Positions 24,648 through 41,101 of a stretch of DNA of 64,000 nt are shown here, in pieces. The position numbers and the translations under genes were made by a program. This DNA is from an uncultured Clostridiaceae bacterium (GTDB lineage Bacteria > Bacillota > Clostridia > TANB77 > CAG-465), in NCBI GenBank assembly GCA_947169155.1, contig CAMVON010000001.1, forward strand, positions 124,001-188,000, in the 5' to 3' direction. Within the stretch, counting starts at the first letter, position 1; each line of letters starts with the position of its first letter. The notes under the pieces are model-generated. The model was not told where the DNA came from, made no database searches, and saw only the letters and a list, made by a program, of their open reading frames with translations.

Positions 24648-25430
24648 ATGAAAATTATTGAAAAATTTAAAGAGATTTTTAAATATAGACACATGTTAAC
24701 AACTCTAGTTAAGCAAGACATAAATGGTAGATATAAAGGCTCAATTTTTGGATTTTTATGGACATTACTAAATCCATTATTTATGCTAGTTATCTACTCA
24801 GTTGTTTTCAAATTTGTATTTAAAAATAATATTGAGCATTATCCTATTTATCTATTTATCATGTTAATGCCTTGGAATGCATTTAATAGTATGCTGATGG
24901 TAGGAACAACTTGCGTATCTAATAATGCAAGTATCATTAAAAAGGTTTATTTCCCTAGGGAAGTATTACCATTGTCTGTAATAATAAGTTATACAATTCA
25001 ATATTGTTTTTCACTTATTGTTACTATAGTAGCTATTCTTGTTTCAGGAGTAGGACTATCTTGGTTTGCACTAATGTTACCATTAGTAATGCTTGTACAG
25101 GTAGCTTTTGCATTTGCACTAATACTTGTTTTAAGTGCGATAAATGTATATGTAAGAGATGTTCAATATATGATGACACCAATACTTATGATATGGATGT
25201 ATGCTTCTCCAATATTATATGATATTTCAATGGTGCCAGAAAAGTGGCAAAGCTTATATAAAATGAATCCAATGGTTACAATTCTTACAGGATATAAAGA
25301 TTTGTTATACAATAAACAATTACCAGATTTTCATAGTTTAGGTATTGTATTTGGAATTTCATTAGTTCTTTGTGTAATAGGTTGGTTAATTTTCAACAAA
25401 TTACAAAGACGTTTTGCAGAGGAGGTATAG
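24648..25430 (+). CDS. ABC-2 polysaccharide/teichoic-acid exporter permease (Wzm/TagG type)
   Basis: Membrane half of an ABC exporter that moves lipid-linked glycopolymer across the membrane. 260 aa, six helices. Family text: LVKQDINGRYKGSIFGFLWTLLNPLFMLVIYSVVF, then NVYVRDVQYMMTPILMIWMYASPILYD and LYKMNPMVTILTGYKDLLY, all typical of TagG/Wzm. GGGAG SD. First gene of the operon, followed after 1 bp by its ATPase partner. Confidence 0.95.
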   Translation: MKIIEKFKEIFKYRHMLTTLVKQDINGRYKGSIFGFLWTLLNPLFMLVIYSVVFKFVFKNNIEHYPIYLFIMLMPWNAFNSMLMVGTTCVSNNASIIKKVYFPREVLPLSVIISYTIQYCFSLIVTIVAILVSGVGLSWFALMLPLVMLVQVAFAFALILVLSAINVYVRDVQYMMTPILMIWMYASPILYDISMVPEKWQSLYKMNPMVTILTGYKDLLYNKQLPDFHSLGIVFGISLVLCVIGWLIFNKLQRRFAEEV

Positions 25431-25431
25431 T

Positions 25432-26181
25432 ATGGCAAAGAAAAGCAACGACATAGCAATATCTGTAAAAAACGTTACAAAAGAATTTACAGTATATGAA
25501 GATAAATCATATTTCCTAAAAGAAAAAATAGGACATTTAGGAAGAAATAAGAAAAGAAAACACGTGGTTTTACGTGATATAAATTTGGATATTAAAAGAG
25601 GACAATCTGTTGCTCTTATTGGTGTTAATGGTTGTGGTAAATCTACATTATTAAAACTATTAAACCAAATAATATATCCTGAAAAAGGTAAGATAGAAAT
25701 AAATGGTAAAGTATCTTCTATGATTGAACTTGGAGCTGGATTTAATACAGACTTTACAGGAAGAGAAAACATTTATTTTAATGCGTCAATGTATGGACTA
25801 GGAAAAAAAGATGTTGATCCTATCATTGATCAAATAATAGAATTTAGTGAACTTGGAGATTTTATAGAAACTCCTGTTAGAACATATTCATCTGGTATGT
25901 ATATGAGACTTGCATTTTCAATTGCTGTAAATGTTCAAGCAGATATACTTCTTATTGATGAAATCCTTGCTGTTGGTGATGCACATTTCCAACAAAAATG
26001 TTTGGAAAAAATGAAAGAATTAAAAGCACAAGGAAAAACTATGGTATTTGTATCACATAATATTTCACAAGTTAAAAGCTTTTGTGATAGAGCTGTTTGG
26101 ATTAAAGAAGGTAACATGGTAATGGATGGTACTGTTGATGATGTTACAGACAAATACCTTAAAGAACAAGGGGTAATATAA
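25432..26181 (+). CDS. ABC exporter ATPase (Wzt/TagH type, no C-terminal extension)
   Basis: 249 aa, starting at the ATG at 25432, 6 nt after AGGAGG. A frame extension back to 25414 would overlap the permease and ignore the SD. ATPase motifs: Walker A GVNGCGKSTLLKLL, signature YSSGMYMRLAFS, Walker B ILLIDEILAVGD, H-loop VSHN. The N-terminal insert (SYFLKEKIGHLGRNKKRKHVVLRDI) is characteristic of the polysaccharide-export subclass. It stops after the nucleotide-binding domain, lacking the C-terminal cap-sensing domain of many Wzt proteins and the SH3-like extension of TagH. The substrate is therefore not chosen by a terminal-modification sensor. Confidence 0.95.
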   Translation: MAKKSNDIAISVKNVTKEFTVYEDKSYFLKEKIGHLGRNKKRKHVVLRDINLDIKRGQSVALIGVNGCGKSTLLKLLNQIIYPEKGKIEINGKVSSMIELGAGFNTDFTGRENIYFNASMYGLGKKDVDPIIDQIIEFSELGDFIETPVRTYSSGMYMRLAFSIAVNVQADILLIDEILAVGDAHFQQKCLEKMKELKAQGKTMVFVSHNISQVKSFCDRAVWIKEGNMVMDGTVDDVTDKYLKEQGVI

Positions 26182-27567: not shown

Positions 27568-29796
27568 ATGAGCGAAATTGATTTTTTTGATTTTACAAAA
27601 GAACCAGGAAAAGAACTAAAGGGACCTTTAAATGTAAAAATAGATAAACCAAGAGTAAGTATTATAACAGGTTTTTATAATGTAGAAGAAAAATTAATTA
27701 TGCAAACTGCTAATTCTATTTTTAATCAAACATTTCCTTATTGGGAATGGATTATAGTAGATGATTGCTCAAAAGATGAATATAAGAAAATATTAGAAAA
27801 ACTTGAAGCAATGGATGGTAGAATAAAAGTAGTTCATAATGAAAAAAATATGAAACTTCCAAAAACTAGAGACATAGGAATAAGCCATGCCTCATCAGAT
27901 TTCATATATATACTTGATGGTGATGATTTAATAGAAAATACAGCAATAGAAACTGCATATTTTGCTGCAATGACTCATCCTGAGGTTACTTGGGTTTATT
28001 CAGATTCTGTTGGCTTTGAAGGTGAGGAATACTTATGGAAACACCCATTTGATACTAACCAAGAGAAAAAAGAAAATATGCTTTGCTGTAATTCTTTAAT
28101 AAGAAAACAAGCTATATTAGATGTTGGTGGATATTCTAATGTGCCAAAGGATGTATATGAAGATTGGCATTTATGGTTAAGACTTATTGCAAATGGTGCT
28201 AAACCATTAAGAATGTCACACTATGCTTTCTGGTATAGAAGACATAAAAATGGTGTGCTAAGTGGAATTAATTCGGATAAAGCTAAAAAGAAAAAAGCTT
28301 TAAAAGAAATAGAAAGAATAGGAAAAAGCATTACTAAAAAAGCTAATGCAATTCAATATCCTAATTCAGACTATTATCCAGATTATTCTTCACATCCAAA
28401 AGATTTCGAGTTTGATGCACCATATATTCAAAAAGAGAAAAATAACAAGAGAATACTTTGTATTTTCCCTTGGCTAACTTTAGGTGGAGCAGATAAATAC
28501 AATTTAAACTTGTTAGAAAAATTATATGAAGAAGGATATGAGACAACTATTGTTACTACAGTTCCATCAGAATATGTATGGAGACCTAGATTTGAAAAAT
28601 ATGCTACAGAAATATTTGATCTTACTACATTTCTAGACAAACCAGATTGGGCAGGATTTATTAGTTATTTAATTAAATCTAGAAATATAGATTTAACATT
28701 TGTTAGTAATTCAACTTATGGATACTATTTAGTACCTTGGTTAAAATTACAATATCCTCAAATTCCAATTATAGATTATATTCATATGGAAGAATGGCAT
28801 TGGAGAGATGGTGGTTTCCCTAGAGATTCAATTGCTGTAGATAAATATATAGATTATACTTATACATGTTCTAGATATCTAATAGATATTATGAAAGAGA
28901 AGATGAATAAGAAAAATGATAAGATGGATGTTGTATACATTGGAACTGATGAAGAACAATTTAATCCTGATGTAGTAGGTAGTCCTGATGATGAAGAATT
29001 AAAGAAACTTGAAGGAAAGAAAAAAGTATTATTTGCATGTAGAATAGCTGAACAAAAAAGACCTATTCTTATGATTAAGATACTTAAAAAGATATGCGAT
29101 AAAAGAAAAGATATTGGCTTTGTAGTTGTTGGTGATGGAAATATGTTACCTACAGTAAAAGAGCTTGCATATCAATATAATATTGAAGAAAATGTTGCTT
29201 TCCTTGGAGTTAAGAAAGATGTTAGACCATATTATAAAATATGTGATGCAACATTAATTTGTTCAATGATAGAGGGGCTTGCATTAACTACTTATGAGTC
29301 TTTAGCTATGAATACACCTGTTATTACTGCAGATGTTGGGGGACAAAAAGAGTTAGTAAATGAAGAAGTAGGTAGAATAGTAAAACTATATCAAGATCCA
29401 AATACAGATATTAACAATTATGATTATTCAGATGAAGAAATAGATGCTTATGTTGAAGCAATCGAAGATGTGATTGATAATAATGATAAGTATAAAAAGA
29501 ATTGTAGAGAAAGAATTCTTCGTGGATTTACTATTAAAAATATGCAAGAGAATATGTTATCAATTATAAAAAATAAAATTGAAGAAGGTACTAATATATC
29601 ATATGATGATATCAAAGCAGATTATAATATGGCTGAAAGAATGCTTGTATTATATAACGAGGCTACTAGAGAAGAATATGATAATCCAGATGATGATGAT
29701 ATACCTTTAAAACAAAAAATTGGTAATGTTATGTGGAAATATAAATTTTACAGAGATATGATATATTTTGTAAAAAGAACTAAAGGTGACGTATGA
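27568..29796 (+). CDS. Two-domain glycosyltransferase (GT2 + GT4)
   Basis: 742 aa with two catalytic modules. Residues about 25-250 are GT2: VSIITGFYNVEEKL, IVDDCSKDEYKK, and the metal-binding YILDGDDLIE. Residues about 290-690 are GT4: FPWLTLGGADKYNLNLLEKL, ACRIAEQKRPILMIK, VVGDGNMLPTVKEL and an intact E-x7-E loop in EGLALTTYESLA. One chain could add two successive sugars to a lipid-linked chain. GGAG SD. The stop overlaps the next ATG by 4 nt (ATGA). Confidence 0.92.
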   Translation: MSEIDFFDFTKEPGKELKGPLNVKIDKPRVSIITGFYNVEEKLIMQTANSIFNQTFPYWEWIIVDDCSKDEYKKILEKLEAMDGRIKVVHNEKNMKLPKTRDIGISHASSDFIYILDGDDLIENTAIETAYFAAMTHPEVTWVYSDSVGFEGEEYLWKHPFDTNQEKKENMLCCNSLIRKQAILDVGGYSNVPKDVYEDWHLWLRLIANGAKPLRMSHYAFWYRRHKNGVLSGINSDKAKKKKALKEIERIGKSITKKANAIQYPNSDYYPDYSSHPKDFEFDAPYIQKEKNNKRILCIFPWLTLGGADKYNLNLLEKLYEEGYETTIVTTVPSEYVWRPRFEKYATEIFDLTTFLDKPDWAGFISYLIKSRNIDLTFVSNSTYGYYLVPWLKLQYPQIPIIDYIHMEEWHWRDGGFPRDSIAVDKYIDYTYTCSRYLIDIMKEKMNKKNDKMDVVYIGTDEEQFNPDVVGSPDDEELKKLEGKKKVLFACRIAEQKRPILMIKILKKICDKRKDIGFVVVGDGNMLPTVKELAYQYNIEENVAFLGVKKDVRPYYKICDATLICSMIEGLALTTYESLAMNTPVITADVGGQKELVNEEVGRIVKLYQDPNTDINNYDYSDEEIDAYVEAIEDVIDNNDKYKKNCRERILRGFTIKNMQENMLSIIKNKIEEGTNISYDDIKADYNMAERMLVLYNEATREEYDNPDDDDIPLKQKIGNVMWKYKFYRDMIYFVKRTKGDV

Positions 29797-31526
29797 TTAA
29801 AATAACTTTTTTTAACAATGAAGATAAATATGTAAATCAATTTAAAAAAATGGAAAACGTAGATGTCTTATATGCAGATATACGTGAAATGGAATCAAAA
29901 GCAAAAATAGAAAAAGATAATTCTCTTTATGAGGATTATCTTAGACTATTATATGCCAAAGATAATGAAGGTTTATTAGTATTTAATAAATGTGAACTAG
30001 TTGGAGATTTAAGACAAGTATTAAAAAATGATTTCTTTATGGGATTTGATACGGAAAACTCAGTATCTACTGAATTAATATATGTAAAAGAAAAAAATAA
30101 TGAAATTATTTCTAAAGCAATTGATATTATTGAAAAAAATAACAATATAGATAATATTACAGAAGTATTTTCTAAAGCTGTAGGAGTTAACTTGTCTAAA
30201 ATATTCAATAGTTTAGTAAAAGTAGATAATAATTCATTTATTTATCCATATGATTATTTCTTCCCATTAGACTATGAAAAACATGGTAAGAGATTTTCAG
30301 AGAATACAAAACTTGTTGTATATAAAAATATACCTATGGATAAAAAAGTTAAAAGAAAGCTAGATTCTTTCAAGAAATTTGGCGGAGCTGCTACTGTATA
30401 TTTTAACTCTATGATTGATACATTAAGAGTAAATGTTGGTAGAAAAAAATATAATTTTATGCTAAAAGTTGGAATTGCTGCAGATAAAAAAGCTGCTAAA
30501 GAGCAACTTGAAGAAACTATAAATATATTGAGCAAATATGAAAAAAATATAGATTATATTATTATCCATAATCCAAATTGGATGGGGGTAACATCTGCAA
30601 CTAAAGAATTATTTACAAACCTAGTTCCTCTTCAAGAATTAAATTCAAACAAAGAGGTAGAAATAGTTGCAAAAAAAATACTTGAACTAAATCCAAAGCA
30701 AATTGTATTTAGTGCTTTTGTAGATGGTTGGGACAAGCTTGCAAGATATATAAGAAAAAGCAATCCAAATATTAAACTAAAAAGTTTCTGGCATGGTTCT
30801 CATTCACAAGTTGTTGATGAAATAAATTGGAGAACAAATACATATGTTATTAATCTTCATAAAGAAGGCATAATTGATGTTATGGGAACATGTAAAGAAA
30901 GCTTATTAAATTTTTATTTATCTCAAGGATATAAAGCTGCATTTTTAAAGAATACAGTTAGATTAGATGAAGATTTGTTAGAAGAAGTTAAAAAATCAAA
31001 TGATGAAAATAAAGATAATAAAGAGAATAAAATAAAAATTGGTCTTTATGCGGCAGGACTTGATTGGAGAAAAAATATGTATACTCAAATGGCTGCTGCG
31101 TCTTTATATAAAGATGCAATTATAGATTCACTACCTTTAAGTTATGAATCAGAAATATTTATGTCTAAATTTAAAATTGGACTTGAAGGTCAAAGAAAAG
31201 GTGTACCAAGAGCAGAACTTTTAAAGAGAATGGCTAAAAATGATATTAATTTATATGTAACATTTTCTGAATGTGCTCCAATGCTTCCAATTGAATCAAT
31301 GGAAGTAGGTACTTTATGTGTTAGTGGTAATAATCATCACTATTTTAAAAATACACCGCTTGAGGAATATTTAATTGTAAATAGAGAAGATGATGTTATA
31401 GCTATTAAAGAAAAAGTAGACTATGCACTTGAAAATAAAGAAAAAATCTTTGAATTATATAAAGCTTGGAAAGAAGAATATGATAAATCTTCTCTTCAAA
31501 GTGTAAAAGATTTTTTAGATATGTAA
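29793..31526 (+). CDS. Degenerate GT32-like domain fused to a GT-B glycosyltransferase domain
   Basis: 577 aa. Residues 1-180 line up with the intact GT32 protein at 35234: DYLRLL (48-53) with DYARL, FFMGFDTE (81-88) with VFLGVEDS, YPYDYFFPL (151-159) with YPRDYFYPL, and FSEN (168-171) with FSEN. The catalytic FDTD of GT32 is replaced by FNKC (64-67), so the sugar-nucleotide/metal site is lost. Residues about 220-577 are GT-B-like and paralogous to the next gene: FWHGSHS (about 332), GLYAAGLDWRKN, ECAPMLPIE (E-x7-E), and NHHYF. It is probably a one-active-site transferase with a binding or scaffolding GT32 remnant. ATGA overlap with the upstream gene. Confidence 0.78.
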   Translation: MIKITFFNNEDKYVNQFKKMENVDVLYADIREMESKAKIEKDNSLYEDYLRLLYAKDNEGLLVFNKCELVGDLRQVLKNDFFMGFDTENSVSTELIYVKEKNNEIISKAIDIIEKNNNIDNITEVFSKAVGVNLSKIFNSLVKVDNNSFIYPYDYFFPLDYEKHGKRFSENTKLVVYKNIPMDKKVKRKLDSFKKFGGAATVYFNSMIDTLRVNVGRKKYNFMLKVGIAADKKAAKEQLEETINILSKYEKNIDYIIIHNPNWMGVTSATKELFTNLVPLQELNSNKEVEIVAKKILELNPKQIVFSAFVDGWDKLARYIRKSNPNIKLKSFWHGSHSQVVDEINWRTNTYVINLHKEGIIDVMGTCKESLLNFYLSQGYKAAFLKNTVRLDEDLLEEVKKSNDENKDNKENKIKIGLYAAGLDWRKNMYTQMAAASLYKDAIIDSLPLSYESEIFMSKFKIGLEGQRKGVPRAELLKRMAKNDINLYVTFSECAPMLPIESMEVGTLCVSGNNHHYFKNTPLEEYLIVNREDDVIAIKEKVDYALENKEKIFELYKAWKEEYDKSSLQSVKDFLDM

Positions 31527-31541
31527 AGCGAGGAAGATTCT

Positions 31542-32597
31542 ATGTCTAGACATGTGGAAAAAATTAAAAAAATAGTATTTAAAGGTGGAGAAGACAAAAA
31601 TGACAAAATACGTATTTTAGATACTATTTTTTCATATAAAGATAAAGATATATTGGCTATATATAATCCTGAAAGTATAGGAATTATGAATTCAACAAAA
31701 GATATGTTTGAAAATACTTTAGGGATTAAAGAGATATATAATGTTCAATTAGCTCAACAGATAGCTCAAGCTATAGTAGATTCAAACATTAAACAAGTAG
31801 TATTTAGCTCAATAGCTTTTGGTTGGAAAGCAATAGCAGAAGAATTAAATATTTTAAATCCAGATATAAAAATAAAGTTCTTTTGGCATGGATCACATTC
31901 TATGTTAGTTCAAAGAGATGAACCTTATTTCTTTTATTCAATTATTGAATTATTAGATAGAGGAATTGCTCATTCTATTGGATTTGCTAAAGAGAGTATG
32001 GCTCAGTTTTATAAGATTAAAGGATATAATTCATTTTTTGTACCAAATACATTAAAGGGTTTAAAATCTGATACAAAATATGAAAAAATTGATGGAGTTA
32101 ATAAAATAGGATTATATTCTGCTGGAAGTAGATGGGAAAAGAATACATATAATCAACTTAGTGCTACTTCTTTGATTGAAAATGCTTTAGTAGATTTGAG
32201 CCCATCTAGTGAACTTTCAAATAGCTTTTGTGATATGATGAACATAAATTTAGTTGATAGAAATCTAAAATATATGAAACGTCAAGATTTGCTTGATAGA
32301 ATGGCAAATAATGATGTTAATTTATATGTTACATTTACAGAATGCTCACCTGTTTTACCTTTAGAGAGCTTAGAATTAGGTGTACCATGTATTACTGGAG
32401 ATAACCATCATTATTTTAGAGGCTCAAAACTTTATGATTATCTTGTAGTTCATAGTGAAGATGATATCAATGAAATTGCAGATAAAGCAAAAAAAGCAAT
32501 TGAAAATAGAGAAGAAATTATTTCACTATATAAAAAATGGAAAGTCGAATACGATGAGTTTGTAAAACAAAAACTTGAAGAATTTATCGTAAGTTAG
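31542..32597 (+). CDS. GT-B glycosyltransferase, paralogue of the preceding C-terminal domain
   Basis: 351 aa, matching the C-terminal part of the preceding protein along its length: FWHGSHS (about residue 114), GLYSAGSRWEKNTY, ECSPVLPLE (E-x7-E), DNHHYFRG. The N-terminal GT32-like part is absent. It is either a duplicate that lost it or the ancestral form. GAGGA SD, 15 bp after the fusion gene. The two may act as a heteromeric or sequential pair. Donor and acceptor unknown. Confidence 0.82.
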   Translation: MSRHVEKIKKIVFKGGEDKNDKIRILDTIFSYKDKDILAIYNPESIGIMNSTKDMFENTLGIKEIYNVQLAQQIAQAIVDSNIKQVVFSSIAFGWKAIAEELNILNPDIKIKFFWHGSHSMLVQRDEPYFFYSIIELLDRGIAHSIGFAKESMAQFYKIKGYNSFFVPNTLKGLKSDTKYEKIDGVNKIGLYSAGSRWEKNTYNQLSATSLIENALVDLSPSSELSNSFCDMMNINLVDRNLKYMKRQDLLDRMANNDVNLYVTFTECSPVLPLESLELGVPCITGDNHHYFRGSKLYDYLVVHSEDDINEIADKAKKAIENREEIISLYKKWKVEYDEFVKQKLEEFIVS

Positions 32598-33760: not shown

Positions 33761-34825
33761 ATGGAAAAAATAGCAGTACTAATACCATGTTATAATGAAG
33801 AATTAACTATAGAAAAAGTTATAAAAGATTTTAAAAAAGAATTACCACAAGCAGATATATATGTTTATGATAATAATTCAAAAGATAAAACATATGAAAT
33901 AGCAAAAGCTGCTGGCGCAATTGTAAGAAGAGAAAATAGACAAGGTAAAGGAAATGTAGTAAGATCAATGTTTAGAGACATTGAAGCAGATTTATACGTA
34001 ATGGTTGATGGAGATGATACATATCCTGCAGAATTTGTTCATGAGCTTATTAAGCCTGTAAGAGAAGGAAAAGCAGATATGGCTATTGGAGATAGATTAT
34101 CTAATGGAACATATCATCAAGAAATTAAAAAGAATTTCCATGAGTTTGGAAATAATCTTGTAAGAAAAGCAATCAATGTTTTATTCAAAAATAATCTTAA
34201 AGATATCATGACAGGATATAGAGTATTTAACAGAATGTTTGTTAAAAATATGCCAGTTATGAGTCCTAAGTTTGAACTTGAGACTGAGATGACTCTATTT
34301 GCTCTAGATAAGAAATTTAGAATTTTAGAAATTCCAATTGTATTTAGAGAAAGACCAGAAGGAAGTGAATCAAAAATTGATACAGTTTCTGATGGAATTA
34401 AAGTTATTAAAACTATTATTAAAATGTTTAAAGATCATAAACCTTTCGCATTTTTTGGTATTATATTTGCAGTTTTATTTATTATTGGATTACTAGTTGG
34501 AATACCTGTTATAGTTGAATTTTGTAAGACTAAAACTATAACTAAAATTCCATCTGCAATACTTGCAACAGGTATTATGACTTTAGCAGTAATATTTGGA
34601 CAATGTGGTGTTATATTACAAACTATTGTTAAACAACATAGAGAGAACTATGAACTTAATCTATTAAGATATTCACAAATAGAAAAGTATCTTAATAGTA
34701 AAGTTGAAGATAAAGAAGAAGTAAAAGTTGTTAAAGAAGAAAACAATAAATCAAAAGAAAAAGGAAAACAAAAAAATGAAAAAAAATCAAAAAATAATGG
34801 AAAAGGTAAAAAAAGTTCTAAATAG
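33761..34825 (+). CDS. GT2 polyprenyl-phosphate sugar synthase (GtrB/DPM1-like) with Lys-rich tail
   Basis: 354 aa. Catalytic domain: AVLIPCYNEELTIEKVI, VYDNNSKDKT, RRENRQGKGNVVRSMF, MVDGDDTYPAEFV, and DIMTGYRVFNRMFV. Two C-terminal helices follow (about 227-250, 266-288), then a cytoplasmic tail that becomes almost pure Lys/Asn/Glu/Ser after residue 310. The upstream 120 bp have no terminator or clear promoter. The downstream gtrA gene begins inside its 3' end. It likely makes undecaprenyl-phosphate-sugar for use outside the membrane. Confidence 0.91.
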   Translation: MEKIAVLIPCYNEELTIEKVIKDFKKELPQADIYVYDNNSKDKTYEIAKAAGAIVRRENRQGKGNVVRSMFRDIEADLYVMVDGDDTYPAEFVHELIKPVREGKADMAIGDRLSNGTYHQEIKKNFHEFGNNLVRKAINVLFKNNLKDIMTGYRVFNRMFVKNMPVMSPKFELETEMTLFALDKKFRILEIPIVFRERPEGSESKIDTVSDGIKVIKTIIKMFKDHKPFAFFGIIFAVLFIIGLLVGIPVIVEFCKTKTITKIPSAILATGIMTLAVIFGQCGVILQTIVKQHRENYELNLLRYSQIEKYLNSKVEDKEEVKVVKEENNKSKEKGKQKNEKKSKNNGKGKKSSK

Positions 34826-35213
34826 GGAAGTAATATTCTATTTAATATTTGGAGTATTATCTACTATTATAAATTTAGGCTCATTTTACATTTTAAATAC
34901 ACTTTTATCTGTAAATGAAAATTTAGCCAATTTTATTGCAATAATACTAGCTGTATTATTTGCATATTTTACTAATAAAGATTTAGTATTTCATTCAGAA
35001 GTTAAGACATTTAAAGATAAGATTATACAATTTTTAAAATTTATGTCAGGACGAGCATTCACTCTTGCAGTAGAGTTTTTTGGAGGGCTATTATTGTTTA
35101 AAATTCCTATTCCAAATATGATTACTAAGACATTTTTGACAGTTATTGTAGTTATTTTAAATTATTTTATTAGTAAATATTTTGCTTTTAATTCAAAATC
35201 TAAAGATAAATAG
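34776..35213 (+). CDS. GtrA-like flippase
   Basis: 145 aa, four helices, GtrA family, recognised by EVIFYLIFGVLSTIINLGSF and NFIAIILAVLFAYFTNKDLVFHS, plus the C-terminal NYFISKYFAF. These proteins are thought to flip polyprenyl-P-sugar to the outer face. I start at the ATG at 34776 (AAGGA 10 nt upstream), 50 nt inside the upstream GT2. Another ATG at 34797 is possible but lacks an SD, and the earlier in-frame TTG at 34728 is unlikely. Coupling to the GT2 fits a donor-maker/flippase pair. Confidence 0.88.
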   Translation: MKKNQKIMEKVKKVLNREVIFYLIFGVLSTIINLGSFYILNTLLSVNENLANFIAIILAVLFAYFTNKDLVFHSEVKTFKDKIIQFLKFMSGRAFTLAVEFFGGLLLFKIPIPNMITKTFLTVIVVILNYFISKYFAFNSKSKDK

Positions 35214-35233: not shown

Positions 35234-36004
35234 ATGAATGATGAACCAGTAAAAATTATTCATTACTGTTGGTTTGGACCAAGAAAACTATCTAAAGTTG
35301 CAAAGAAATGTATTAAAACATGGTCAAAGTTTTTACCTGACTATGAAGTAAAGTTATGGACAGAATCAAATTTTGATTTTAACCAAAATGCATTTGTTAA
35401 ACAAGCTTATGAAAATAAGAAATGGGCTTTTGTAGCAGATTATGCAAGGCTTAAGGCTTTATCTGAGTATGGTGGAATATATTTTGATACAGATATAGAA
35501 GTAATTAAAGATATATCACATATTACTAAAAATGAAGTATTCTTAGGCGTTGAAGATTCTGGAAAAGTAAATGCGGCAGTTCTTGGTGCAAAAAGACCTC
35601 ACGAAAAATTTATAGATGATATGATTGCTGTTTATGATTCTTTAGAAAAATTTGATAAAGATAATATTTATGACATAACTATTCCAGCACTTATTACTAA
35701 GGAATTAGAAAAACATGGCTTTGACGAAAATTGTAAAGATATACAATACTTTTTTGATGGAGATGTAGTAGTTTATCCAAGAGACTATTTTTATCCATTA
35801 AGTTATGATTATCAAGATAATTTATTCTCAGAAAATACTTGTATGAAACACTTATATGATGCTACTTGGGCTTCAAAACCAGAAAAAATTACACTGTTTT
35901 TTAGAAGACACAATATGAAATTTATGGTTGGAATTGTATTTTCATGTGTAAATATTAAGAATAGAATAAAGAGATTTTTCAAAGGTGAAAAAGAAGATAA
36001 ATAG
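35234..36004 (+). CDS. GT32-family glycosyltransferase (OCH1/capsule type)
   Basis: 256 aa. Canonical GT32: KIIHYCWFGPRKLSKVAKKCIKTW at the start, WAFVADYARLKALSEYGGIYFDTDIEV with the metal-binding DTD at 85-87, VFLGVED, and the C-terminal VVYPRDYFYPL and HLYDATW. Transfers a hexose to a growing surface glycan. A basic amphipathic C-terminus may hold it at the membrane. AGGGGG SD. It serves as the intact comparator for the degenerate domain at 29793. Confidence 0.93.
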   Translation: MNDEPVKIIHYCWFGPRKLSKVAKKCIKTWSKFLPDYEVKLWTESNFDFNQNAFVKQAYENKKWAFVADYARLKALSEYGGIYFDTDIEVIKDISHITKNEVFLGVEDSGKVNAAVLGAKRPHEKFIDDMIAVYDSLEKFDKDNIYDITIPALITKELEKHGFDENCKDIQYFFDGDVVVYPRDYFYPLSYDYQDNLFSENTCMKHLYDATWASKPEKITLFFRRHNMKFMVGIVFSCVNIKNRIKRFFKGEKEDK

Positions 36005-36015
36005 GAGAGATATAT

Positions 36016-37938
36016 ATGAAGAAAAAAATTATTATTTGTCTTCTTGCAATAATAATTGCTATTTTTGCTACAATTGAGTTAAGCATATCTAACTTTGCAA
36101 AAGATACACTTGTATATAATATTTCTTTAGACAATGATACTTCAATTAAAGAAATAAATATAAATGAAGATGTTGTTCCTTTTGATTCTAGTAAAGATAT
36201 TGTTTCACTAGAATTATCTAGAATTGATGATTTAAAAATAGATTATGAAGGAGAACTTGTAGTTTTAGATAATAATTCGAATTTATTAGATGATGAAACT
36301 GGTGAAGGTGATGGCCTATTTCTTCATACTATTAGCAAAAAAGATGTAATTATTGGAAGTATAAATATAAATAGTATAATATATTTTGTTATTTGTTTTG
36401 TTTTAAGTGTTATTTCAATTAGCTATATAAGTTATTTTATAAACAGATATAAAAATAAAAATGAAAGTTTTAAAATAGGTGATATTGTACTACTAAGTAT
36501 AGCTATATTTATAATATTTATGATGTTATTTTATATATTACTATATATATTGGATGTTGCAGTTGTTGTTTTGCCTCTTGCAATAATTTCATATATTGTA
36601 TTTAATTTAAAGAATAATATTAAAGATAAAAAAGAAAATTTATATGCTGTACTTGCAATAGTTTTTGGAATTACTATGATTTTTGTTTTACCACCATTTA
36701 ACGCTCCAGATGAGTATGCTCATTTTGTAAAAAGCTATACAACAAGTACAATAAATTCTGATGAAGGAAAGACATATCTTCCAATAAGTCTAGAAAGTTT
36801 TTATGCAAAATATGGACATGATTTATTAGATGAAAAAATGGATTTTGATTCTAAGTCATACTTTGATGATATTATGCAGGAGGGAAATTATAATTCTTTA
36901 AGTGAAAAAGAATTTGTATATACTAATACAAAATACTTAAAAGTAGTACCATATATTCCTTCAATTGTAGTTATATTTGTATTAAAACTAATTGGGGCAT
37001 CTCCACTTGTTATGAGTGTTTTGGGAAGATTTATTTCTCTTATTGTTATGATAATTATGTATTATTTAGCAATAAAAAATGTCCCTATATTAAAAAGAGT
37101 ATTCTTTGTTATTTGTATGTTGCCTATTGTTTTGCATCAAGCAGTCATTAACCAAGATTATTTAACAAATGCAACAGTTATATTACTAATTGCAATGATA
37201 CTTAAGTATAGATATGAAAATATTGAAATACGAACAAAAGAGATAGCTTATTTATCTATTTTAGGATTAATTTTATCATGTTGTAAGTTTGGCTATTTTG
37301 TGTTTTTATTTACAATATTTCTTATACCATGTAGATTATTTAAAAATAAAAAAACAGCTGTTATTTTTAAATTATTATTTGTTATTATACCAATAATTAT
37401 TTCATTTACTGGAAATGTTACAATTACACAGTCAGAAGATAATATTCATTATACTATAGGATATTCTTTATCTCATCCAATTGAGGCTATTAAAGTATTT
37501 GCTAAAACTTTCTGGCAACGTGCTGAACTAGATTTGTTTAGAGGTCAATTTGATGGGTTTGGAGTGTCTACTAAGTGGAATAATGGATTTATATCTTCAG
37601 TGTTATATTTTATATATATATTATTCTTCTTAAGTAGTGAAAGAGAAGATGTTAAAAAACTTGAAAATAAAACAAGAATTATGCTTTTTGTGGTAGCTAT
37701 ATTACTAATTGGAGTAGTATATATGGCTATGTATTTAAACTGGACAAATATGGGAGCAGATGTAATAGATGGCCTACAACCTAGATATTTTACACCGGCA
37801 ATATTATGTTTGAGCTTAGCTTTTGCAAATAGTTTAATTAAAATTGATATAAAAAATAGAGAAAAATTAGATACCATACTTATGTGCGTTATATATGTAT
37901 GTGTATTTTCAACTATTATTTTAGGATTTTATGCTTAA
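36016..37938 (+). CDS. DUF2142 membrane protein (GT-C-like), copy 1
   Basis: 640 aa, about 11-13 helices. The first helix is followed by a roughly 80-residue extracytoplasmic domain. The DUF2142 hallmark is PPFNAPDEYAHFVKSY, an acidic loop after a helix like the DxD/ExD loops of GT-C enzymes. The C-terminal GLQPRYFTPAIL is the second conserved block. GT-C transferases use polyprenyl-P-sugar outside the cell, which fits the GtrB-like and GtrA genes just upstream. GGAGAG SD. Enzyme role inferred. Confidence 0.88.
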   Translation: MKKKIIICLLAIIIAIFATIELSISNFAKDTLVYNISLDNDTSIKEININEDVVPFDSSKDIVSLELSRIDDLKIDYEGELVVLDNNSNLLDDETGEGDGLFLHTISKKDVIIGSININSIIYFVICFVLSVISISYISYFINRYKNKNESFKIGDIVLLSIAIFIIFMMLFYILLYILDVAVVVLPLAIISYIVFNLKNNIKDKKENLYAVLAIVFGITMIFVLPPFNAPDEYAHFVKSYTTSTINSDEGKTYLPISLESFYAKYGHDLLDEKMDFDSKSYFDDIMQEGNYNSLSEKEFVYTNTKYLKVVPYIPSIVVIFVLKLIGASPLVMSVLGRFISLIVMIIMYYLAIKNVPILKRVFFVICMLPIVLHQAVINQDYLTNATVILLIAMILKYRYENIEIRTKEIAYLSILGLILSCCKFGYFVFLFTIFLIPCRLFKNKKTAVIFKLLFVIIPIIISFTGNVTITQSEDNIHYTIGYSLSHPIEAIKVFAKTFWQRAELDLFRGQFDGFGVSTKWNNGFISSVLYFIYILFFLSSEREDVKKLENKTRIMLFVVAILLIGVVYMAMYLNWTNMGADVIDGLQPRYFTPAILCLSLAFANSLIKIDIKNREKLDTILMCVIYVCVFSTIILGFYA

Positions 37939-37949
37939 GGGGATAGTGT

Positions 37950-39995
37950 ATGAAGGTAAATTTTAAAAAAATATTATTATTTTTAGCTTTGTTAATATTT
38001 ATAAGCTCATTTAGTACAATGGGCTATATGATATATGATTATAGTGCAAATAATTATAATGAATATATTATTAATCTTAAAGCAGGAAATATAATAGAAG
38101 AGATTAGAATAGATGATATTAACTATAGACTTGCAATGTATGAGAGTGAAAATTTAAAAGCAATTGAACAAGATCCGCAAAACTATAATTTTCAGTTGGA
38201 AGTCTTAAATGATACTTCACTTTATTACAAATTATCATGCAGCGAAACTTTAAAAGTTACATTTGTAAATAGTGAAGAGGCATCTTTTATTATTAATGGA
38301 CAAGATCATAGTGATTTAATAACAGATAATGTAATAGATTATAATCCAATACCTTATGAATATATTTTAAAAGCAGATAGATCTAAAATGAATTCAGCAT
38401 GTTTTGTATTTTTTATTGTTGATGCTATCTTTTTATATATTATATTTAAGTTTTATAATTATATGAGAACAGATAATAAGGAAACATTTCTAGTTATCAT
38501 TCATAGTGTTGCATATGCTATCTGTCTATTTGGTATTATGCTATTTTCATATTATGTGTTATATGATGCTTTTAAATTGTTTGTAATATTACCAATAGCT
38601 GCATTAATTATATATAATATTAAATTCTTTAAAGGAAAGGATTATGAAAAACTATATATTATTTGCGCAATTACTTTTGGTGTTTTAATGATATTCTTAA
38701 TGCCACCATGTAATGTACCAGATGAGGCATCTCATTATACTAAAGGTTATGAGCTTGCTCGTGTTTATGGAGAAGAAGGACAAGGGTTTATACAAACTCC
38801 TGTAGCTACAAATGAATTTTTAAATGTTGCCGCAAATGTTCAGTCTCATGATAATGATATTAATGCAAGATTTTATTTTAAAGAAGTATTAAGAAACTCA
38901 GATTATACTCAATTTATAGATGGAAAAGTAAATTATGCAAATGTTAAAAAAGCTTTCTTTATACCATATATTATTTGTGGTTTAGTAGTAAAGATAGGTA
39001 CAATGCTTAGTTTATCTCCACTAGTTATATTCTTAATTACTAGACTTGCAAATTTAATATTTGCAACAATTATTACATATTTTGCAATAAAAATTACACC
39101 TAGATTTAAAAGAGTGTTATTTATAATAGGTTTACTTCCTATAGTAATACAACAAAGTGCTGCAATTAATGTAGATACTTATACAGATGCAGTTGCTTTT
39201 TTACTAATAGCATATATACTTAAATTAATATATGAAATAAAAGAGATTGGTTTAAAGCAAGTTTTATTGCTATTTGGTGCAGGGCTATTATTATGTTTTG
39301 GAAAGTTTGGATATTTTCCAGTTGCATTAATGCTAATACTTGTCCCAAATGCTAAATTTAAATCTAAGTCTAAAGGAATAGTTCTAAAAGTAGCATTTTT
39401 TGCTTTTATGCTAATTATTTCGTATTTCTTTAATACTATAAATAACTACATAATTACTGATGTGGTAAATGATGAAACAAATGTATATGGACTAAAATAT
39501 ATTTTAACAAATCCATTTTCTGCAATAGCAGTATACTTCAGATCATTTTTAATTAGACTTGATCAAGATATATTTAGAGGATATTTTAACTGTTTTGGTT
39601 ATTCTACAGTAGTACTAAAAACAATACCATATCTTGTAACATTTGCTATGTATATTATTATTTTATGTACTAAAGAGGCAGATGATGAAGAACAAAAACT
39701 TACTTTATTTGAGAAAATTGTTTATGTATTAATATTTGTAATGTTAATTGGAATTATTTATACAGTTGCATTTTCTGCATGGACAAAGATGGGAGCAAGA
39801 AGTATTTTAGGCGTTCAATCTAGATACTTTATTCCACTTTTGCCACTTATATATTTTGTAATACAAGATATAGGGTTAAAGATTAATGTTCCTGAAAAAA
39901 TAAAAAATAAACTAGGTAATAGGGATTTAAGTTTTGTTTTAATTTCTATTACATATATCATTGCTTTTGCTACAATTATTTCATTTTTTGCTTAA
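37950..39995 (+). CDS. DUF2142 membrane protein (GT-C-like), copy 2
   Basis: 681 aa; tandem paralogue of the preceding gene with the same plan: N-terminal helix, extracytoplasmic beta-rich region, then multiple helices. The hallmark loop is LMPPCNVPDEASHYTKGYEL and the C-terminal block GVQSRYFIPLLPL. Divergence is high, so the duplication is old and the two copies likely use different acceptors. Start ATG 37950; GGGG-type SD upstream. Confidence 0.88.
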   Translation: MKVNFKKILLFLALLIFISSFSTMGYMIYDYSANNYNEYIINLKAGNIIEEIRIDDINYRLAMYESENLKAIEQDPQNYNFQLEVLNDTSLYYKLSCSETLKVTFVNSEEASFIINGQDHSDLITDNVIDYNPIPYEYILKADRSKMNSACFVFFIVDAIFLYIIFKFYNYMRTDNKETFLVIIHSVAYAICLFGIMLFSYYVLYDAFKLFVILPIAALIIYNIKFFKGKDYEKLYIICAITFGVLMIFLMPPCNVPDEASHYTKGYELARVYGEEGQGFIQTPVATNEFLNVAANVQSHDNDINARFYFKEVLRNSDYTQFIDGKVNYANVKKAFFIPYIICGLVVKIGTMLSLSPLVIFLITRLANLIFATIITYFAIKITPRFKRVLFIIGLLPIVIQQSAAINVDTYTDAVAFLLIAYILKLIYEIKEIGLKQVLLLFGAGLLLCFGKFGYFPVALMLILVPNAKFKSKSKGIVLKVAFFAFMLIISYFFNTINNYIITDVVNDETNVYGLKYILTNPFSAIAVYFRSFLIRLDQDIFRGYFNCFGYSTVVLKTIPYLVTFAMYIIILCTKEADDEEQKLTLFEKIVYVLIFVMLIGIIYTVAFSAWTKMGARSILGVQSRYFIPLLPLIYFVIQDIGLKINVPEKIKNKLGNRDLSFVLISITYIIAFATIISFFA

Positions 39996-40051
39996 AAAAT
40001 ATAATATAATTGCAAAATGTAGTATAATTAAATAGAAAATTGGAGGTAATT

Positions 40052-40741
40052 ATGAAAACATTAATAATAGTACCAGCATATAATGAAGCTTTAAATATTG
40101 AAAAAACAATAAATGACATAACAACAAATACAGATTATGATTATGTTGTAATAAATGATTGCTCAAAGGATAATACTAAAGAAGTCTGTGAAAAAAATGG
40201 CTATAATTTAGTATCTTTACCAGTTAATTATGGACTTACTAGTGCAATTCAAGTTGGAATGAAATATGCTAAGCAAAATGGCTATGATATTGCAATTCAA
40301 TTTGATGGAGATGGACAACATGACGCAAGATATTTGCAAAAACTCGTAGAAAAAATTGAAAACGAAAATGTAGATGTAGCAATTGGTTCAAGATTTGTAG
40401 AAAAGAAGAAACCATTTACAGCAAGAATGCTTGGAAGTAGACTAATCTCATGTGCAATTAAACTTACAACATTTAAAAAAATTACAGATCCTACATCTGG
40501 TATGAGAGCGTACGGTAAGAAAGCAATAGATTTATTTAATTGTAATGCAAGTCTTACACCAGAACCAGATACAGTAGTATTTATGATTAAAAAAGGACTT
40601 AAAGTTAAAGAAGTTCAAGTAGAAATGAGAGATAGAGAATTTGGAGAAAGCTATCTTAATGCTTTTAAATCTATCAAATATATGATGAATATGATGTTAT
40701 CTATTATATTTATTAGAAGCTTTACTAGAAAGGACAAGTAG
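40052..40741 (+). CDS. Short GT2 glycosyltransferase (DPM1-like, no membrane helices)
   Basis: 229 aa from the ATG at 40052, 6 nt after GGAGG; the in-frame TTG at 40040 forms part of the SD. Motifs: LIIVPAYNEALNIEKTI, VINDCSKDNTKE, the metal-binding IQFDGDGQHDARYL, IGSRFVEKKKPF, DPTSGMRAYGKKAI. It lacks the C-terminal helices of the two longer GT2 enzymes in the window. A DUF2304 membrane protein follows, a pairing often seen in surface-glycan clusters, and may provide the missing membrane part. Confidence 0.91.
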   Translation: MKTLIIVPAYNEALNIEKTINDITTNTDYDYVVINDCSKDNTKEVCEKNGYNLVSLPVNYGLTSAIQVGMKYAKQNGYDIAIQFDGDGQHDARYLQKLVEKIENENVDVAIGSRFVEKKKPFTARMLGSRLISCAIKLTTFKKITDPTSGMRAYGKKAIDLFNCNASLTPEPDTVVFMIKKGLKVKEVQVEMRDREFGESYLNAFKSIKYMMNMMLSIIFIRSFTRKDK

Positions 40742-40750
40742 GTGAGTAAT

Positions 40751-41101
40751 ATGTCATTAACACTTAGAATAATTTTAATTATTTCATCAATTATTTCTTT
40801 TTTACTATGTATTAAAAGAATAAAGCAAGCAAAACTTAAAGTTGAAAATTCAATTCTATGGATGATTGGAAGCTTTGTTTTAATTTTAATGGCTATTTTT
40901 GATAAAGCTATTGCTTGGGTTGCAACTAAACTTGGATTTATGGCTACAGTTAATTTTGTATATTTAATAGTTATAGCTTTTTTATTAGCACAAGTGTTTA
41001 TAGATAATTTGAGAATTGCTGAACTTAATGAAAAAGTAAAAAATCTAGATCATTATGTAGCACTAGAGAATAATAGAAAAGAGAGAGAAAAAAACAAATA
41101 A
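40751..41101 (+). CDS. DUF2304 membrane protein
   Basis: 116 aa from the ATG at 40751 (GGTGA just upstream); the GTG at 40742, right after the previous stop, is an alternative. Three helices: LTLRIILIISSIISFLLCIK, SILWMIGSFVLILMAIF and FVYLIVIAFLLAQVF, then a charged helical tail. The KQAKLKVENSILWMIGSF segment is the DUF2304 signature. Probably the membrane partner of the upstream GT2; biochemical function not established for the family. Confidence 0.87.
   Translation: MSLTLRIILIISSIISFLLCIKRIKQAKLKVENSILWMIGSFVLILMAIFDKAIAWVATKLGFMATVNFVYLIVIAFLLAQVFIDNLRIAELNEKVKNLDHYVALENNRKEREKNK

Follow-up and report, generated by a model that had tools for sequence, protein, structure and literature searches.

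A GT32-like domain with a degenerate catalytic site, retained in a fused glycosyltransferase of a clostridial surface-polysaccharide cluster

Most of what is known of pseudo-enzyme domains in glycan polymerases comes from animals, and their role is still argued. A non-catalytic partner also occurs in GtfA-GtfB, the O-GlcNAc transferase of serine-rich-repeat adhesins, in which a non-catalytic GT-B protein aids acceptor binding by the active GT-B protein. The human heparan sulfate polymerase EXT1-EXT2 is composed of two related proteins with two transferase domains each (PMC9675754), and in the CHSY-CHPF chondroitin polymerases a partner that lacks the donor-binding residues is retained and is reported to be essential for complex formation (PMC12748766). 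A literature search on GT32 pseudo-enzymes and GT32-GT4 fusions found nothing relevant. Here we describe a clostridial protein in which a degenerate GT32-type domain is joined to a GT-B domain, compare it with its relatives across the order and weigh the possible reasons for the retention of the degenerate domain.

The gene lies in a 64,000-nucleotide stretch of DNA (the window) from a low-GC assembly of 1.57 Mb whose close relatives are metagenome-assembled genomes (MAGs) labelled Clostridia. Both open reading frames of the original prediction, a fused gene of 577 aa (29793-31526) and an adjacent stand-alone gene of 351 aa (31542-32597), are present where it had placed them, and all features of the fused, solo, exporter and GT32 genes described below are on the + strand. 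The 577-aa gene is housed in a surface-polysaccharide cluster that encodes a Wzm/Wzt-type polysaccharide ABC exporter (24648-26181, with genes at 24648 and 25414, kept close to the fused gene wherever a locus was read at length), a GT4 enzyme, a GT2-GT4 fusion, the fused protein, the solo GT-B protein, GT2 enzymes, an intact GT32 enzyme, DUF2142 membrane proteins and a DUF2304 protein. The GT2-GT4 fusion (742 aa, 27568-29796) is upstream of the fused gene; the BLAST match to its homologues in loci L060, L067 and L034 is limited to the GT4 segment, and the first half of the homologue may differ in these loci. The two DUF2142 genes stand in tandem (36016-39995) and are followed by a GT2 gene (40040) and the DUF2304 gene (40742) in the region 40040-41101, an arrangement that recalls side-chain glycosylation modules of the GacI-GacJ kind. 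The TTG start listed for a GtrA-like ORF (34728-35213) falls within the preceding gene (33761-34825), so that translation probably begins at a later codon. None of the fused, solo and GT32 proteins matched an NCBIfam model.

Residues 1-215 of the fused protein (29793-30437) form a degenerate, putatively non-catalytic domain that is predicted to adopt a GT-A fold of the GT32 type. The original prediction had aligned the first 180 residues block by block with the stand-alone GT32 enzyme of the cluster (256 aa, 35234-36004), which holds for residues 41-174 (28% identity, E 2e-11 by BLASTP; E 6.7e-9 when the whole genome is searched) and not for the first ~40 residues, which are left unaligned by BLAST and are matched by the predicted fold only. 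The DTD metal motif of the intact enzyme (residues 85-87, 35486-35494) pairs with F64-N65-K66 (residues 64-66, 29982-29990), so the replacement by FNKC proposed earlier is correct to within one residue. The Pfam GT32 model PF04488 matches the 35234 protein at 9e-16, and L036 and L030 at about 1e-15, but gives no match at E<=1 to residues 1-216, as fits the degeneracy of the domain; a profile search of the sequences of solved structures found nothing. Its fold was modelled from six degenerate sequences only, with no intact GT32 sequence included (pLDDT 77, pTM 0.72). In a Foldseek search of the PDB the best matches to this model were LtpM, Och1 (a GT32 enzyme) and SetA (E 1.7e-3 upward, probability near 1), and VIA-align gave Z scores of about 10 to GT-A enzymes (Och1: Z 10.1, 166 residues, rmsd 3.5). 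A GT32-like fold, as had been supposed, is thus indicated by the model and by both structural comparisons, and an unrelated N-terminal fold is rejected, since a model built without intact GT32 sequences still matches GT32.

A linker that is helical in the predicted structure (residues 216-248, 30438-30536) leads into a GT4-like GT-B domain with intact catalytic motifs (residues 249-577, 30537-31526). The E-x7-E motif that the original prediction had noted here is confirmed as E493-x7-E501 (31269-31295); E493, E501 and the basic residue K427 are invariant in the GT-B alignment. Foldseek matches the full-length model to BshA, MshA and PglA at E ~1e-6, in support of a GT-B fold, and the pTM of this model, 0.60, leaves the arrangement of the domains uncertain. 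The Pfam model Glycos_transf_1 scores 17.6 and 16.9 bits for the C-terminal domain and the solo gene, against a cut-off of 26.4. The GT-B half of the fused protein is probably active. The solo gene (31542-32597), assigned the GT-B fold through its 40% identity to the fused domain, keeps the WHGS, K-N and E-x7-E motifs (E267 and E275, 32340-32366). That identity bears out the earlier description of the two as paralogues, but the solo gene is no recent copy: a midpoint-rooted tree groups the solo genes in a single clade, to which no fused GT-B domain belongs and which lies outside them all, and this leaves a recent duplication of the domain unsupported.

Fusions with the degenerate N-terminal domain (clade A) are confined to one family, in which they occur in 23 of 36 genomes and in genera g1, g2, g3 and g5; a clade-A profile run over 385 genomes of the order scored at least 200 bits in those 23 and at most 117 in all others. 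The domain is degenerate in all 22 aligned members. In the alignment, clade A has lost the HYCWFG segment, W28, the DTD motif, H176 and W181, whereas the sister rows still have the segment and the late His and Trp. The former metal site varies between clade-A species (FNK here, and DGN, DGE, DKK, KGD and NGD), with both aspartates found in one of the 22 members, L011, where the site is still DGD. Clade B consists of fusions that are built in the same way but have an intact GT32 domain; they occur in another family of the order and also in MAGs labelled Bacilli, Erysipelotrichaceae and Tenericutes; the GT32 motifs are intact in 12/12 aligned sister sequences and in further genomes, and the additional fusions checked within the order have HYxWFG and DTD. 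In the midpoint-rooted GT-B tree clade A is monophyletic (100/98) and nested in an otherwise intact fused family, with the main clade B group as its sister and a second intact group outside both. The most economical history is a single loss of the GT32 catalytic site, from a live ancestor. Related proteins in L051 and L032 have no N-terminal domain at all, so the GT-B domain can work alone in other lineages. In genome G032 a dead clade-A fusion occurs together with an intact one from the second intact group (L009 and L064), each on or near a contig end, and this points to transfer of the module or to a mixed bin.

The loss of the fused GT32 site coincides with an intact GT32 gene elsewhere. 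Counting relatives at E<=1e-20, the 35234 protein is the only one found in the source genome, and an intact GT32 outside the dead fusion is present in 22/23 clade-A genomes of the family versus 1/12 genomes without a fusion (Fisher 3e-7, with genomes that are not independent because clade A has a single origin). In the sole exception, G025, the copy lies at a contig end. Among the clade-A loci read at length, the intact GT32 is in the same cluster in 12/12, in some of them within a longer protein: it forms the N-terminal part of proteins of 600-730 aa at L059:9281-11092, L061:17316-19400, L062:6443-8629 and L035:12035-14134, and the remainder of the L062 protein matches PF14264 (GtrII), a membrane transferase family. 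G017, the one genome of the same genus that has the intact fusion only, has no other GT32 at the same threshold. From these gene contents, another gene of the genome appears to make up for the lost GT32 activity; the base of a tree of intact GT32 domains is poorly resolved as to descent of the stand-alone from the fused GT32.

A second loss, which the original prediction does not mention, is seen in the gene next to the intact fusions. The solo GT-B, which occupies the position after the fusion in clade A, has retained WHGS, K-N and E-x7-E (E-x7-E in 20/20). In clade B this position is usually taken by a homologue of the solo GT-B (306 columns aligned in a profile comparison, E 1.2e-42), which stands alone (~311 aa) or is joined to a GT2 domain and in which the His and Lys/Arg motifs and E-x7-E are lost (E-x7-E in 0/20, counting two loci where the fused partner lacks a GT32 domain). 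This degenerate GT-B neighbour is kept under selection, with a dN/dS of 0.20-0.25 between close species. It lies directly 3' of the intact fusion at L036:9529-10461, L037:9611-11626, L065:4238-6262 and other sister loci, and the stand-alone version that was scanned, the one in L036, matched no Pfam model. The second intact group (G017 and contig C87 of G032) has no such neighbour, its next gene encoding a GT2-GT4 protein. Since the motif losses differ by clade, both main lineages hold one dead domain in the two-gene module, and not the same one. We tentatively raise the possibility of reciprocal loss, in which one of the two, the fused GT32 half or the neighbouring GT-B, is dead and stays in place to hold the acceptor, as an independently evolved bacterial counterpart of EXT1-EXT2.

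Selection on the clade-A domain is uneven along its length. Pooled over five close clade-A pairs (NG86), dN/dS is 0.445 (0.31-0.62) for residues 1-70, the donor-binding third, and 0.129 (95% interval 0.09-0.17) for residues 71-215, near the 0.099 (0.08-0.12) of the fused GT-B domain. In clade A conservation is lowest in residues 1-42 (24% mean identity, below the linker), and in clade B it is highest in residues 1-70 (73-76%), while residues 148-180 have 60% identity in clade A versus 68% in clade B. Residues that are invariant in clade A and different or variable in clade B include K99, N103, I122, S127, Y153 (Arg in clade B), D160 (Ser in clade B), G165 and K166, and K173, Cys in clade B, is found in 21/22 clade-A members; Y153, D160, G165, K166 and K173 fall in the conserved segment IYPYDYFFPLDYEKHGKRFSENTK (residues 150-173, 30240-30311). 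Catalytic residues are gone and purifying selection persists. A lost donor side in an otherwise constrained domain would be the trace expected of a retained acceptor-binding or contact surface, and acceptor binding, as suggested earlier, or support of a complex is a plausible role for the dead domain.

We consider it reasonably probable that the fused protein is a transferase for an ABC-exporter-dependent surface polysaccharide, with an active GT-B half and a GT32 half that is a retained non-catalytic module in a two-gene complex. The GT32 half has lost its nucleotide-sugar- and metal-binding residues and would have been kept as such a module, and the fused protein would act in one complex with its GT-B neighbour; their pairing is seen at the level of genes, and a shared cluster is not proof of contact. 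The relatives in L051 and L032 that lack the N-terminal domain, the DGD site of L011 and the uncertain arrangement of the domains count against this reading. The domain that loses catalysis would stay for its part in keeping the complex assembled, in gripping the growing glycan on behalf of the active GT-B site, or in both, and in the clade-A lineage the GT32 reaction would have moved to the separate GT32 protein.

The domain might instead have lost its function and merely await deletion, as its species-specific metal-site residues and the low identity of residues 1-42 would allow. The presence of the domain in frame in every clade-A member, across four genera, a dN/dS well below 1 in residues 71-215 and the clade-specific invariant residues speak against such simple decay, which we reject on dN/dS and retention and regard as very unlikely; the original prediction thus survives on this point although orthologues with an intact DxD exist. 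Metal-independent GT-A enzymes such as C2GnT-L, in which basic residues replace the metal, exist, and several of the new invariant residues are basic, so the domain could be a live transferase that uses another donor without a metal. That the nucleotide-holding region is the least conserved, with the highest dN/dS and almost no invariant residues, makes this very improbable.

A role in folding or as a linker only, in which the domain keeps the GT-B half soluble or positioned and contacts neither glycan nor partner, would be in keeping with the preserved GT-A core fold and the long helical connection predicted by the models, and CHPF has been described as chiefly stabilising (PMC12748766). The polar residues K99, N103, D160, K166 and K173, invariant or nearly so, seem to go beyond the needs of a fold, however, and the adjacent solo GT-B needs no such aid; we hold this role to be rather unlikely. 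Chain-length sensing, with the dead domain as a molecular ruler that measures the polymer and controls either the GT-B domain or the ABC exporter, draws on the position of the fused gene beside or near the Wzm/Wzt genes in the loci read at length, but such a position is expected of any glycosyltransferase of the pathway, and of the readings considered here we give this one hardly any weight.

These clusters amount to a natural experiment in bacteria: across dozens of species the GT32 half occurs either intact or dead and the neighbouring GT-B either dead or intact, and these natural versions of the module allow a comparative test of the role of a dead transferase domain. They also carry a warning for annotation, in that a homology-based GT32 or GT4 label may name a protein that probably transfers nothing. 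The N-terminal domain shares its predicted fold and clear homology with the GT32 family (Och1 and the 35234 protein) and differs from it in the loss of the donor- and metal-binding residues and in being unmatched by the Pfam model; it should be annotated as a GT32-like pseudo-enzyme domain rather than as a GT32 transferase.

Among the described systems, GtfA-GtfB consists of two GT-B proteins that act on a protein acceptor and has no GT-A domain, unlike the fused GT32-GT-B protein. In CHSY-CHPF a whole subunit is degenerate, whereas here it is one domain of a fusion or, in the sister lineages, the neighbouring protein. The likeness to EXT1-EXT2 is one of anatomy, the clostridial complex being proposed from genes; because the families differ and the complex is of this putative kind, we claim membership in neither EXT1-EXT2 nor CHSY-CHPF. 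EXT1-EXT2 is built from eukaryotic GT47 and GT64 domains, whereas the clostridial module belongs to a bacterial ABC-exporter cluster and joins a GT32 to a GT4-like domain; unlike in EXT1-EXT2, the degenerate domain differs between lineages.
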